Assembly (NCBI RefSeq): GCF_020630935.1
Contig: NZ_JAHDIG010000033.1
Span: 9,708 to 49,913 of the forward strand
DNA from: Bernardetia sp.
GTDB lineage: Bacteria; Bacteroidota; Bacteroidia; Cytophagales; Bernardetiaceae
Reading direction: 5' to 3'
Length of the DNA stretch: 40,206 bases
Both the position numbers and the translations under genes were made by a program. Position 1 is the stretch's first letter. Each line of letters begins with the position of its first letter. The notes beneath the pieces are model-generated. The model saw nothing but the letters and a program-made list of their open reading frames with translations, was not told where the DNA came from and did not search any database. Positions 4,336-31,605 of this stretch are shown in pieces.

Positions 4336-5475
4336 ATGAACTCAAATCTGAATAATATCCACATACTTTTAGTAGAAGATAGCCTTTCTGACCAATTTCT
4401 GATGCAAGAGATATTAGAAAAAACAACTTTCCCTATAAGTAACCTTACTATAACAGAAAGTCTAGCAAGTGCTACTAATATATTGAGTAAAAATAAGATA
4501 GATTTAGTATTTTTAGATTTATCATTGCCAGATAGCCACGGTTTAGAAACCTGTAAGGCAATTACCGAAAACCATTATGGAATACCTATTATTGTCTTGA
4601 CAGGACTCAATGATGTACATGTGGGTTTGGAAGCTATTTCATTAGGAGCAGCCGACTACATTGTGAAAGGAACTCTTGACGAATATGGGATGGAAAGGGC
4701 AATTCTCTATGCTTTACAGCGCAACGAAACCCAAAGGCAAATTACCAAAACGATGGATATGCTTAGAGGCTACAATCAAAAACTAGAACAGTTTGCCCAT
4801 ATTATTTCGCACGACCTTATGTCGCCTATTGTATCAATAAAAGCATCTATTCAACTCTATGAATTAGAAAAAAAACACAACGACCTTACCCAAACTGCCG
4901 AAGAAGTTATGAAAGAAGTGGGAGAAGGCGTAGATAAGCTACATAACAAGCTCAAATCACTTGTAAAGACACTGGTAGAACAGCAAACATCAGGTTCTAA
5001 ATTTGATACTATCCTACTCTCTAGCTTTACAGAAAAAGTTATCAGAGATATGAAAGATATTTATAACCAACCTGATATAGATATTGAAGTAGATTTAGAT
5101 GAAGAACAAAAAATATCCTTTGTCCCAGACCTAATGTATAGCATTATGCAAAACTTGCTTTCCAATGCTATCAAATATCGCTCGCCCAAGCGTTCGCCCA
5201 AAATTAAGATTTGGGCAGAACCACAAGAGGAATATTATTGTCTAAACATAGAAGACAATGGCATCGGAATAGATATGGAAGCTAACAAAAACAAATTGTT
5301 TGGAATGTTTCAACGCCTACACGAAGAAAATACTGATATAGATGGGCGAGGTATTGGACTCCATTTAGTGAGAAACATTGTGTATAGTAATGGAGGCAAA
5401 ATAGATGTAACAAGCCAAGTAGATGTTGGAACAAAATTTAGTATTTTCTTACCCCGAGAGCCAAGATTTATTTAA
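4336..5475 (+). CDS. Receiver-histidine kinase hybrid protein
   Basis: A 379-residue soluble protein with an N-terminal receiver domain (about 8-125; Asp61 in LVFLDLSLPDSHG, Lys111) followed by a HisKA domain with His159 in IISHDLMSPIV and an HATPase domain (NLLSNAIKYRS, DNGIGID, GRGIGLHL). There is no membrane segment or other sensor domain, so its input is likely phosphate at Asp61. As the last gene of the phytochrome operon it could receive signal from BphP and pass it on by its own kinase activity. All catalytic boxes look intact. The gene ends just before a strong hairpin at 5490-5520. Its downstream target is not visible in the window. Confidence 0.9.
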   Translation: MNSNLNNIHILLVEDSLSDQFLMQEILEKTTFPISNLTITESLASATNILSKNKIDLVFLDLSLPDSHGLETCKAITENHYGIPIIVLTGLNDVHVGLEAISLGAADYIVKGTLDEYGMERAILYALQRNETQRQITKTMDMLRGYNQKLEQFAHIISHDLMSPIVSIKASIQLYELEKKHNDLTQTAEEVMKEVGEGVDKLHNKLKSLVKTLVEQQTSGSKFDTILLSSFTEKVIRDMKDIYNQPDIDIEVDLDEEQKISFVPDLMYSIMQNLLSNAIKYRSPKRSPKIKIWAEPQEEYYCLNIEDNGIGIDMEANKNKLFGMFQRLHEENTDIDGRGIGLHLVRNIVYSNGGKIDVTSQVDVGTKFSIFLPREPRFI

Positions 5476-5489
5476 CATTGGATTCAGTC

Positions 5490-5520
5490 GTAGGGTTTTT
5501 GACTAACTCAAAAACCCTAC
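5490..5520 (+). terminator. Rho-independent terminator of the phytochrome operon
   Basis: A perfect 13-bp stem (GTAGGGTTTTTGA / TCAAAAACCCTAC) with loop CTAAC, followed by TTTTA on the + strand. The right arm is also the last codons of metX on the opposite strand, whose stop lies in the loop. Confidence 0.8.
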
Positions 5521-6552
5521 TTTTAAAGATTGGTGCAATATATTCTCTAATAAGATATTACTGAGTTTTTCTCCTTCCAATAAAAAACCATCGTGTCCGT
5601 AGGGAGACTTTATTTCAAAATAACCTGCATTAGGAATATATTTTGCCAAAAGTTTTTGGTCGTCAGAAGGAAACAAGACATCATTCGTAATGCTTACCAC
5701 TACTGTTTTTGCCTTGATTTTGGAAAGTGCATTTTCAATTCCTCCTCTGCTTCTGCCTACATTATGAGAATCCATTGCCTTTGAGAGATTGTAGTAAGCA
5801 AAAGCATCAAAACGCTGTGCTAGTTTTTCTCCTTGATATTTTTGATAAGATTCTGCACTAAAGTTTTGCGTTCGTTGGTCTATATCGGTCTGTGTGAGAT
5901 TGTAAGCCTCATAATTTCGATAAGACAAAAGCGCAATGCTGCGAGCTACTTTCATTCCACCAAGTCCAGCATTTTTATCATTATTTTGCCAAGTAGGGTC
6001 GTTTTCTATGGCTTGACGTTGCGAAGTATTGAAAGCAATTCCCCACGCTGAATGGCAAGCATTTGTAGCAATCAGAGCCAAATTTTCCATCAGATTAGGT
6101 TCTCTTATCGCCCATTCCATTGCCTGTTGTCCTCCCATTGACCCACCGATACACAGCCAAATTTTTTCAAAACCTAACTTTTTCTGCAACTCTTTTCTAA
6201 CCAAATCTATTCCACTAACAATATCACGAATGGTAAAAAATGGAAAATCGTGATAAAACGGCTCTTTTGTTGTAGGATTTTCTGAAAGTGCATTTGTTGA
6301 GCCATAGCATGACCCTAAAATATTAACGCAAATAATAAAATGTTTTTTGGGGTCAATTATTCTATTTTCTCCTACCAAAACATCCCACCATTCCAACGGA
6401 TTACTATTTGCTGTGAGAGCATGACAAACCCAAACGACATTATCCTTTTTCTCATTGAGTTTTCCAAAAGTATGATATGCCAAGCGCAAAGAAGGCAAAG
6501 ACTGTCCGTTTTCAAGGATAAATTCGGAAGAAGAATCAAAGTAATTTAACAT
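5503..6552 (-). CDS. metX: Homoserine O-acyltransferase (MetX family)
   Basis: A 349-residue alpha/beta hydrolase-fold enzyme that acylates L-homoserine, normally from acetyl-CoA, in methionine synthesis. Nucleophile Ser138 sits in GGSMGGQQAMEW; the other triad members are Asp291 (SITNDVLFPSDDQ) and His320 (YGHDGFLLE). The N-terminal HALTANS and the LGSCYGSTNAL segment are hallmarks of MetX. Length is normal for the shorter Bacteroidota form. Acyl donor specificity (acetyl versus succinyl) cannot be fixed from sequence alone. It stands alone rather than with metB/metC-type genes. A palindromic repeat lies just upstream of its start, and its 3' end overlaps the convergent terminator of the phytochrome operon. 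Confidence 0.92.
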   Translation of the reverse strand: MLNYFDSSSEFILENGQSLPSLRLAYHTFGKLNEKKDNVVWVCHALTANSNPLEWWDVLVGENRIIDPKKHFIICVNILGSCYGSTNALSENPTTKEPFYHDFPFFTIRDIVSGIDLVRKELQKKLGFEKIWLCIGGSMGGQQAMEWAIREPNLMENLALIATNACHSAWGIAFNTSQRQAIENDPTWQNNDKNAGLGGMKVARSIALLSYRNYEAYNLTQTDIDQRTQNFSAESYQKYQGEKLAQRFDAFAYYNLSKAMDSHNVGRSRGGIENALSKIKAKTVVVSITNDVLFPSDDQKLLAKYIPNAGYFEIKSPYGHDGFLLEGEKLSNILLENILHQSLKVGFLS

Positions 6553-29139: not shown

Positions 29140-29859
29140 ATGAAATACTTACCTTATTTTCTCATTGCGCTAGGCGTAATTCTGATTGACCAAGCTCTCA
29201 AGCTCTACATTCATTCTACATTATCTTTAGGAGAAGAAATTCTAATTTTTGGAGACTGGTTCAAATTGCACTATACCCTCAACCCTGGAATGGCATTTGG
29301 AATTACACTAGGTTCGGATTATGGCAAACTTATTCTTACTGTTTTTAGAATATTTGCTGGAATTGGAATAGGATATTTTATGGCTCGTGCTGCGCTACGT
29401 GATGCTCCCAAAGGATTTGTATTTAGTATGGCTCTTATTCTAGGAGGTGCATTCGGAAATATTGTAGATTCTGCTTTTTATGGTGTTTTTATAGAAGGAA
29501 ATGCTGTTCCGATGTATGACAAAGAACCTAGCTTTTATCCATGGTTTCATGGGCAAGTAATCGATATGTTTTATTTTGATATAGCTTCGGGTTATTTCCC
29601 AGAAAACTTGCCTTTTGTGGGTGGCGACCATTACTCTTTCTTTCCTATTTTTAATATTGCTGATGCAGCTATTTTTATAGGTGTTTGTATTATCTTGATT
29701 TGGCAAAGACGTTTTTTTCCAAAAGAAGAAATTGTAGAAACAGAAGTGGAAAAATCCTTAGAAGATGAAATTAGAGATGACAATGCAAATATAGAAAATG
29801 CAGATATTTCTGAATCAAATGAAAACGTATTGAAAGATGAATTGAAAAAAGAAGAATAA
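29140..29859 (+). CDS. lspA: Lipoprotein signal peptidase II
   Basis: A 239-residue inner-membrane aspartyl protease that cleaves prolipoprotein signal peptides after lipidation. Four membrane segments are visible, with the first helix ending in DQALKLYIHS. Catalytic aspartates are Asp110 in GAFGNIVDSAFYG and Asp175 in FNIADAAIFIG; YTLNPGMAFG is also conserved. A 45-residue insertion before the last motif is usual in Bacteroidota. An unusual acidic cytoplasmic tail (about 195-239, rich in Glu, Asp and Asn) extends beyond the core. It serves the lipoproteins in this and other regions. The Rpn-type gene follows 16 nt later on the same strand. Confidence 0.96.
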   Translation: MKYLPYFLIALGVILIDQALKLYIHSTLSLGEEILIFGDWFKLHYTLNPGMAFGITLGSDYGKLILTVFRIFAGIGIGYFMARAALRDAPKGFVFSMALILGGAFGNIVDSAFYGVFIEGNAVPMYDKEPSFYPWFHGQVIDMFYFDIASGYFPENLPFVGGDHYSFFPIFNIADAAIFIGVCIILIWQRRFFPKEEIVETEVEKSLEDEIRDDNANIENADISESNENVLKDELKKEE

Positions 29860-29875
29860 TTTTATTATCAAAATT

Positions 29876-30757
29876 ATGTCCACACAAGAAAGATATATCA
29901 ATCCTTTTACTGATTTTGGATTTAAGAAGCTATTTGGTTCAGATGTTAATAAAGACTTACTGATTAGTTTTTTGAATGAAGTATTGCCCCCCAAAGCACA
30001 GATAAAAAGCCTAACCTATCTAAAGTCAGAAAATTTAGGACGTTCGGCAATAGATAGAAAAGTTGTTTATGACCTTTACTGTGAAAATGAAGAAGGAGAA
30101 CGTTTTATAGTAGAATTACAGAAGGCAAAGCAGAAGTTTTTTAAAGACCGTACTATTTTTTATTCTACTTTTCCTATTCAAGAACAGTCTCAAAGAGGAG
30201 ATTGGAATTTCCAACTCAAAGCAGTTTATACTGTCTCTATCTTAGATTTTGTATGGAATGAAGAAGACGATGAAAGTCCTGTGAAAGAAACAGCCATGCT
30301 TGTGAGTCTAGACACTAAAAAGATTTTTTATGATAAGCTCACTTATGTTTATATTCAAATTCCTTTATTTGATAAAACAGAAGATGAATTGGAAACCTTA
30401 GAGGACAAATGGTTTTATGTAATGAAAAACTTACAAAGTTTTCCCAACCGTCCAGTAGCACTTCAAGAAAGAATTTTTGATAAGGTATTCGAAACGGCAG
30501 AAATAACGCAGTTCAACAAAACCGAAAGAAGTAGGTATGAAGACAGTCTGAAAGTTTATAGAGATATAAAAAACAGCTTAGACTATGCAGAAGAAAGAGG
30601 AGAAACAAGAGGAATCGATATAGGTAAACGTCAAAATCAAATTAAAAATGCAAAAAAAGCTCTTGAGGAAGGTTTATCTATTGAGTTAGTAGCAAAGATT
30701 ACAGAACTAACATTAGAAGAGATACAACAAATCAAAAATGATTTGGAAAATAAATAA
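29876..30757 (+). CDS. Rpn family recombination-promoting nuclease / PD-(D/E)XK transposase-like protein
   Basis: A 293-residue protein that begins with the signature RYINPFTDFGFKKLFG. The nuclease core shows VYDLYCENEEGERFIVELQK with Asp66, Glu80 and Gln82 as the D...ExQ active site of the PD-(D/E)XK fold. The C-terminal third (ERGETRGIDIGKRQNQIKNA...TLEEIQQI) is the helical tail typical of this multicopy family in Bacteroidota. Rpn proteins cut DNA and stimulate RecA-independent recombination in E. coli; many homologues are annotated as transposases. The gene follows lspA by 16 nt and its TAA overlaps the next ATG (TAATG), which suggests translational coupling. Confidence 0.88.
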   Translation: MSTQERYINPFTDFGFKKLFGSDVNKDLLISFLNEVLPPKAQIKSLTYLKSENLGRSAIDRKVVYDLYCENEEGERFIVELQKAKQKFFKDRTIFYSTFPIQEQSQRGDWNFQLKAVYTVSILDFVWNEEDDESPVKETAMLVSLDTKKIFYDKLTYVYIQIPLFDKTEDELETLEDKWFYVMKNLQSFPNRPVALQERIFDKVFETAEITQFNKTERSRYEDSLKVYRDIKNSLDYAEERGETRGIDIGKRQNQIKNAKKALEEGLSIELVAKITELTLEEIQQIKNDLENK

Positions 30758-31494
30758 TGAACTACTCTGATTCCATAGACTTGATAGAAAGACTTGCCTC
30801 TTTAGGCACAGATAACGCACAAGATACCATTTTGTGGGATTCTGATACTAGAAAAGGAGTGTTGTATGGGACAAATAAAGCAGGAGAAAAAATACTAGAC
30901 TTCCGTCTTCCTCTTACTTTTCCTACGCTTCCCAAAAAAGATGAGGAAGAAAATTCGCTTTGTCTTTCAGATTATTCTGACAAAATATCACTTCTACCAA
31001 AACCCTATTTGCTTATTTTGATTCAGGCTGGAGCAGCTTCTTTAGGATATTTTGAAGAGGGTAAACTCATCTACCATAAAGTTATTACAGCGTATATGGT
31101 ACGCAAAAAACAAGGAAAATCACAGATAAAACACCTCAACTCAAAAGGAAAATCTCGTTTAGGCTCTCGCATCAGATTACAAAATACCATTTTATTTTTT
31201 GAAAAAATAAATGCAAAACTCAAAGAGTGGCATCAAAAATCTGCTATCTTTGATAAAGTAGAACGTATTGGACAAAGTGGTTCACCAGACTTATGGCATT
31301 TGTTTTATACTTCAAAAGAAGAAGCTCCTTTTCAGAAAGAGGATTCTCGTCTGCGTAAAATTCCCCTTACAGTTCATACACCCAATTTTGAAGAATTGCA
31401 GCGTGTAAACCATTGGGTCAATCGTGGGGAATTAATCACTTATAAAGACGACTTACCTTGTTTAGATAATTTAGGAGACGTTATTGAATGGTAG
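30757..31494 (+). CDS. Vms1/ANKZF1-like (VLRF1) peptidyl-tRNA hydrolase, putative ribosome-rescue factor
   Basis: A 245-residue soluble protein. The central block has KLIYHKVITAYMVRKKQGKSQ (to Gln123), a KGKSRLGSRIRLQN segment, a helix FFEKINAKLKEWH, and DLWHLFYTSKEEAPFQ followed by LRKIPLTVHTPNFEELQRVNHWV. In order and wording these match the eRF1-related VLRF1 domain of Vms1/ANKZF1, where an RxKxGxxQ motif carries the glutamine needed to release nascent chains from peptidyl-tRNA; Gln123 would be that residue. There are no ankyrin or zinc-finger parts, as expected for bacterial members. It is translationally coupled to the Rpn-type gene upstream. The function is inferred from motif recognition, not search; I consider the family call fairly strong. 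Confidence 0.75.
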   Translation: MNYSDSIDLIERLASLGTDNAQDTILWDSDTRKGVLYGTNKAGEKILDFRLPLTFPTLPKKDEEENSLCLSDYSDKISLLPKPYLLILIQAGAASLGYFEEGKLIYHKVITAYMVRKKQGKSQIKHLNSKGKSRLGSRIRLQNTILFFEKINAKLKEWHQKSAIFDKVERIGQSGSPDLWHLFYTSKEEAPFQKEDSRLRKIPLTVHTPNFEELQRVNHWVNRGELITYKDDLPCLDNLGDVIEW

Positions 31495-31527
31495 TTATCA
31501 GTTATCAGTTATCAGTTATCAGTTATC
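31493..31527. repeat. Five tandem copies of the heptamer AGTTATC
   Basis: Five perfect 7-bp units start inside the TAG stop codon of the VLRF1-like gene. There are no spacers, so it is a microsatellite, not a CRISPR. The next gene begins about 80 bp later. Confidence 0.9.
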
Positions 31528-31605
31528 AAGGCAAAACTATGTTTCTTGAATAATTATTGTCCTTTAAATCAAAAAAATCGTAATTCTAAAATCTAAATTT
31601 GTATT

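Follow-up and report, generated by a model that had tools for sequence, protein, structure and literature searches.

The closest relatives of eukaryotic Vms1/ANKZF1 are the bacterial bVLRF-1 proteins described in 2019 by Burroughs and Aravind (PMC6514570), who defined the VLRF-1 clade, placed the bVLRF-1 family predominantly in Bacteroidetes and in certain Heimdallarchaeota, and proposed that the eukaryotic VLRF-1 family was derived from it. The family has been described but is experimentally little known, and in the part of the literature that we covered, we found no experimental study of any bacterial VLRF1. In the same account, the bacterial VLRF-1s are presented as independent of other components of the RQC pathway, and it is against this picture that we compare a locus from a Bernardetia sp. 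genome, contained in the 40,206-nucleotide stretch of DNA analyzed here (the window).

At this locus, lspA, an Rpn-type nuclease gene, and the bVLRF1 gene follow one another in one row on the plus strand (Table 1). The bVLRF1 ORF is real, and its product contains the motif RKKQGKSQ followed by RLGSRIRLQN, DLWHLFYTSKEEAPFQ, and IPLTVHTPNFEELQRV in the order given in the original prediction, although DLWHLFYTSKEEAPFQ is conserved only in part in the consensus of the homologue alignment. The stop codon TAA of the Rpn-type ORF and the ATG of bVLRF1 have one base in common (TAATG), also as predicted. Directly 3' of the bVLRF1 stop, the 7-base unit ttatcag occurs in tandem copies (window positions 31495-31528), and a longer form of this repeat is found at the same place in a congener (G006, locus L068), where the contig ends.

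Table 1. Positions in the window of the bVLRF1 gene, its motifs, and the genes upstream of it
Feature	Position	Strand	Basis or remark
lspA (signal peptidase II)	29140..29859	+	PF01252, E=9.5e-34
Rpn-type PD-(D/E)XK nuclease gene, 293 aa	29876..30757	+	PF12784, TIGR01784; judged no part of VLRF1 function
bVLRF1 (Vms1-like release factor) gene, 245 aa	30757..31494	+	PF18826; PDB Vms1 matches
Catalytic-loop motif RKKQGKSQ, residues 116-123	31102..31125	+	R116/G120/Q123 = Vms1 R288/G292/Q295 in alignment to 5whg
RLGSRIRL, residues 134-141, with the conserved arginines that follow the catalytic loop	31156..31179	+	Residue conservation

The assignment of the protein to the VLRF1 family, which the original prediction had made from the letters of the DNA, is borne out by profile comparison. 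The protein matched PF18826 (bVLRF1, with the Pfam title 'Bacteroidetes VLRF1 release factor') with an E value of 1.6e-31 and a score of 109.6 bits, the cut-off being 27. In the PDB, the single bVLRF1 sequence found yeast Vms1 over residues 104-217 (E=7e-5, next match 0.15), and a profile of 40 homologues found it with an E value of 1.2e-11 (next match 0.35); with either query, Vms1 entries were the only PDB sequences with an E value better than 0.1. Judged by these comparisons, the resemblance to the VLRF1 family is not a matter of chance. No other Pfam family was matched at E<=1 anywhere in the 245 residues, and residues 1-84 had no Pfam match, which makes this a stand-alone protein with no stop-codon domain, Pelota domain, or eukaryotic additions as far as Pfam resolves. 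The expectation that such a protein would go unlabelled in routine annotation held only in part, as no NCBIfam model matched it but Pfam names it. The identification of the enzyme is supported by sequence, yet the family was already known (Pfam; PMC6514570), and nothing sets the window copy apart from the known bVLRF-1 family, with which it shares the profile match, the GxuQ loop, the conserved arginines, the stand-alone architecture, and a distribution mainly in Bacteroidota.

The catalytic domain of the eukaryotic family members, yeast Vms1 and human ANKZF1 (PDB 5whg, 6r84, 6r86, and 6r87), can be aligned with residues 104-217 of the window protein. In contrast to these proteins, the window protein has no zinc finger, ankyrin repeats, or VIM (going by the Vms1 domain list in PMC6514570), and its ribosomal partner would be the bacterial 50S rather than the 60S subunit. 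In the profile-based alignment, the Vms1 segment RRKQGGSQ sits under RKKQGKSQ, and counting back from Q295 places R288, G292, and Q295 of Vms1 opposite R116, G120, and Q123, each of which is present in 121/121 homologues. The reading of Gln123 as the catalytic glutamine of the GxxQ motif, and as a residue conserved among orthologues, agrees with both observations. The loop also follows the GxuQ definition of PMC6514570 (a glycine, and a tiny residue before the glutamine), with G120-K-S122-Q123 in the window protein and, at position 122, S or A in 119 of the 121 homologues and F in 2. Further residues found in all 121 are H107, Y113, L127, G131, K132, and S133 and, after the catalytic loop, G136, S137, R138, R140, and L141; in a 40-row alignment, the 15 invariant columns all fell within residues 107-148. 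Arginines of the RLGSRIRL kind are given a role in contacting large-subunit rRNA in section 2.3 of PMC6514570. In yeast, Vms1 R288A and G292A/G293A lost hydrolysis activity, and release was strongly impaired by Q295L, G292A, and the deletion of S294, but an H279 mutant was indistinguishable from the wild type and a Y285 mutant had a partial phenotype (PMC5989216). By the same count, H279 and Y285 correspond to H107 and Y113. Since the counterpart of the invariant H107 is dispensable in yeast, conservation is no proof of a catalytic need at each site.

The AlphaFold2 model of the protein, built from a shallow 5-row alignment of the window and four related loci, had a mean pLDDT of 35.8. Because this model is worthless, we infer the RNase H/eRF1 domain-2 fold from the sequence homology to Vms1 (5whg, E=1.2e-11).

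We consider it likely that the gene encodes a stand-alone release factor of the bVLRF1 family, one that would most likely cleave stalled peptidyl-tRNA on 50S subunits without a strict dependence on RqcH. By analogy with Vms1, the catalytic loop would be inserted into the A site of a peptidyl-tRNA-bearing large subunit, bringing Gln123 to the tRNA 3' end and freeing the nascent chain with no stop codon being read. Because no second domain was found, the protein probably acts on split 50S subunits as a single-component factor for rescue, and would do so beside RqcH where RqcH is present.

The chemistry of this step is disputed, and with it the label 'peptidyl-tRNA hydrolase' given to the protein in the original prediction; nothing in the sequence decides the matter. 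An endonuclease activity of Vms1/ANKZF1 on the 3' CCA end of the tRNA has been described (PMC11317155, where the enzyme is called a dedicated tRNA endonuclease, and PMC11880988), and the window protein could in the same way act on the same substrate by cutting the tRNA at its acceptor end, so that the chain would leave with the CCA nucleotides attached and no ester would be hydrolyzed. Set against this are the argument that the GxuQ motif is sufficient for peptidyl hydrolysis (PMC6514570, section 2.3) and the Q295-dependent tRNA hydrolase activity of Vms1 (PMC5989216). Endonucleolytic cutting is a variant of the explanation that we favor and is compatible with a rescue role, and we regard it as a serious possibility from which we lean only slightly away.

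The protein might also have no catalytic role. For the baeRF-1 families, most of which have no glutamine, section 2.3 of PMC6514570 proposes a part in ribosome shutdown or dormancy, and the window protein could by analogy be a non-catalytic ribosome-binding paralogue comparable to Dom34 or to most of these families. The conservation of the active site makes this very improbable, as Gln123 is kept in every homologue and position 122 is almost always S or A, and the surroundings of the gene argue against it as well. Genes within six of VLRF1 were clustered at 80 of the 121 loci (at the other 41, the scan covered just Rpn and VLRF1), and the commonest clusters were present at 19, 19, and 17 of these 80, synteny being seen at the family level only. 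One member of each of these top clusters was scanned, giving an HrpB-type helicase (PF08482), a protein without a Pfam family, and a HEAT-like match below the cut-off, and no ribosome hibernation factor was found among the six neighbor proteins, a subset of the clusters, that were scanned or read as families. With the best cluster in only 19/80 loci, no fixed operon partner of VLRF1 was seen at the loci clustered.

The genome of the window encodes a protein that matches both NFACT_N and NFACT-R. Residues 259-538 of this protein align to solved RqcH structures (PDB 7aqc and others), and its first 143 residues matched weakly or not at all. Across the order sample, NFACT_N was found in 329/390 genomes (326 above the cut-off). 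No more than four NFACT candidates were scored in each genome, so that absences outside nine rechecked genomes may be misses. Genomes with VLRF1 had an NFACT match in 112 of 121 cases, and those without it in 217 of 269 (Fisher p=0.0024, uncorrected for shared ancestry). An association of this kind, together with the RqcH-like protein of the host, is what would be expected if bacterial RQC in the order had VLRF1 as its dedicated terminator, which would act with RqcH to end alanine tailing on 50S subunits. We nevertheless view such a dedicated role as rather doubtful. Nine VLRF1 genomes have no NFACT match. A full-length RqcH query (from genome G513) also found nothing in these nine, although it matched the four NFACT-positive genomes searched with them, one of these being its own source. 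Three of the nine are fragmented assemblies (G521, G532, and G549, which are 95, 86, and 79% complete, respectively), but the other six (G407, G560, G635, G641, G686, and G745) are 99% complete and belong to one genus. In the VLRF1 tree, these six species fall together as a clade with support of 100/97, next to two species that have RqcH, and they have kept Gln123. A single loss of RqcH in this genus is suggested, because the six genomes make up one clade of the VLRF1 tree while two congeners have the gene.

In the phylum sample, NFACT was found in 289/395 genomes (284 above the cut-off) and VLRF1 in only 6, from which it appears that RQC works without VLRF1. Together with the carriers that have no detectable RqcH, this means that RQC can do without VLRF1 and that VLRF1 does not strictly depend on RqcH, and a strict linkage between the two can be rejected. 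Furthermore, the release of alanine-tailed chains in Bacillus subtilis RQC has been attributed to Pth (Svetlov et al., as cited in PMC11317155), which also speaks against a dedicated terminator. Compared with the independence of bacterial VLRF-1s from RQC components given in PMC6514570, our sample shows an NFACT match in the great majority of carriers, which does not necessarily amount to linkage.

A wider proposal joins both observations: in this order, bVLRF1 might be the missing dedicated bacterial release factor of RQC, ending RqcH alanine tailing on the 50S subunit, and, once RqcH had been lost in some lineages, might have continued there as an RqcH-independent clearer of 50S-peptidyl-tRNA. 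We think this unlikely. If it were true, eukaryotes would have taken over the Vms1 step from a bacterial enzyme that was already doing the same job. Natural material for a test exists in one genus, in which VLRF1 is kept by species that have RqcH and by species that do not.

Among other rescue factors, the genome of the window has one Pth, one SmpB, and two proteins with an RF-1 domain. Pth resembles bVLRF1 in its proposed job, the freeing of chains from peptidyl-tRNA, but belongs to another Pfam family (PF01195) and is present as a copy of its own in the same genome. RF-1-domain matches were counted in an order sample of 271 genomes, two matches being taken as RF1 plus RF2, that is, as no ArfB. 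Exactly two were found in 11/11 genomes of the host family (G000-G010), two of which have no VLRF1, and three were often found in VLRF1 genomes of other families. By these domain counts, ArfB seems to be absent from the host family whether VLRF1 is present or not. In these counts, VLRF1 as a replacement for ArfB does not appear as a clean swap.

The novel part of the original prediction, namely the pairing with the overlapping nuclease gene and a possible shared role of the two, does not survive comparison with relatives. The upstream ORF is a clear member of its family (PF12784 PDDEXK_2, E=1.2e-67; NCBIfam TIGR01784, Rpn family, E=8.7e-32), and it fits the NCBIfam model of the recombination-promoting Rpn nucleases (PMC10327210 and PMC5350276), whereas the E. 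coli Rpn proteins have been studied as PF04754 and the window gene is PF12784 in Pfam. We compared 121 VLRF1 loci, taking flanks of at most 6 kb for 80 of them and at most 4 kb for the remaining 41 (shorter where a contig ended), and searched them with the window Rpn protein, a profile of full-length copies, and tblastn, a combination that very divergent members could escape. An Rpn homologue was found near VLRF1 at 4/121 loci, all from one genus, and was intact and adjacent at only 2/121. Besides the window, these are a locus with an adjacent gene after a 6-nt gap (G001), one with an adjacent but decayed copy (G004), and one with Rpn about 2.3 kb downstream of VLRF1 on the opposite strand (G002). 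The TAATG overlap is missing at the two other loci with an adjacent copy or remnant, where the gaps are 6 and 8 nt. In G003, G005, and G006, three of the seven genomes of the genus, the VLRF1 locus has no Rpn. The upstream genes differ in G002, G003, and G006, with a gene for a C25-family peptidase (PF01364 in the copy scanned) one or two genes off. In G005, VLRF1 starts 6 nt after the stop of an apparent lspA tail (LKDDFKKEE, compared to LKDELKKEE in the window), and no remnant of Rpn is seen. The nuclease is also a multicopy gene in six of the seven genomes of the genus, with PF12784 matches numbering 5, 1, 2, 6, 12, 8, and 2 in G000 to G006, partial ones counted, and thus 5 in the genome of the window.

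A functional pair, in which for example the nuclease damages nucleic acid and VLRF1 rescues the ribosomes that stall as a result, would be in keeping with the one-base overlap in the window, the intact adjacency in one further species, and the adjacent decayed copy in another. The rarity of the arrangement, the congeners without it, the many Rpn copies elsewhere in these genomes, and the G005 locus all count against such a pair, and we find it barely credible. Absence from relatives was also the outcome that the original prediction had named as refuting a joint role. Because Rpn occurs at so few loci, the upstream genes vary, and Rpn is multicopy, we regard the pairing as a local arrangement within one genus: Rpn is an unrelated gene that lies between lspA and VLRF1 in part of the genus, and it appears to be a recent, chance neighbor. 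The E. coli Rpn proteins are reported to be toxin-antitoxin, anti-phage proteins (PMC10327210, a preprint), and by analogy a role of this kind would suit a neighbor that comes and goes.

In the decayed Rpn of G004 (L066, positions 5411-5737), the middle is gone, and what can still be matched corresponds to residues 6-47 and 199-290 of the window Rpn; the best-kept part is the C-terminal one, the E. coli counterpart of which acts as an antitoxin (PMC10327210). In G005 (L067), very roughly 130 bases seem to be inserted in the lspA tail; they contain the inverted repeat TAGGGAAAAGGC / GCCTTTTCCCTA and displace the lspA stop.

VLRF1 itself is patchily distributed. PF18826 was found above the cut-off in 121/390 genomes sampled from the host order and in 6/395 genomes of the phylum sample, all six from the host order, and the gene is therefore dispensable. 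It was recovered as an ORF at all 121 loci. In a tree of these 121 proteins, which has a midpoint root only and in which the bootstrap had not settled, the grouping of the proteins for the most part followed the families of the order to which the hosts belong; the exceptions were one family (f19) that fell into several groups and another (f22) placed inside a third (f14). A mobile or phage origin of VLRF1 finds no support: neither the 50,697 phage records nor the 72,556 plasmid records searched contained a match, and in viral contigs, 19 stretches fitted the search pattern but none encoded a relative. A homologue with 45% identity to the window protein is present in Candidatus Uabimicrobium amorphum (L004, positions 5001-5567), a lineage that does not figure among the hosts of the bVLRF-1 family in the sections of PMC6514570 drawn on here, and horizontal transfer is possible.
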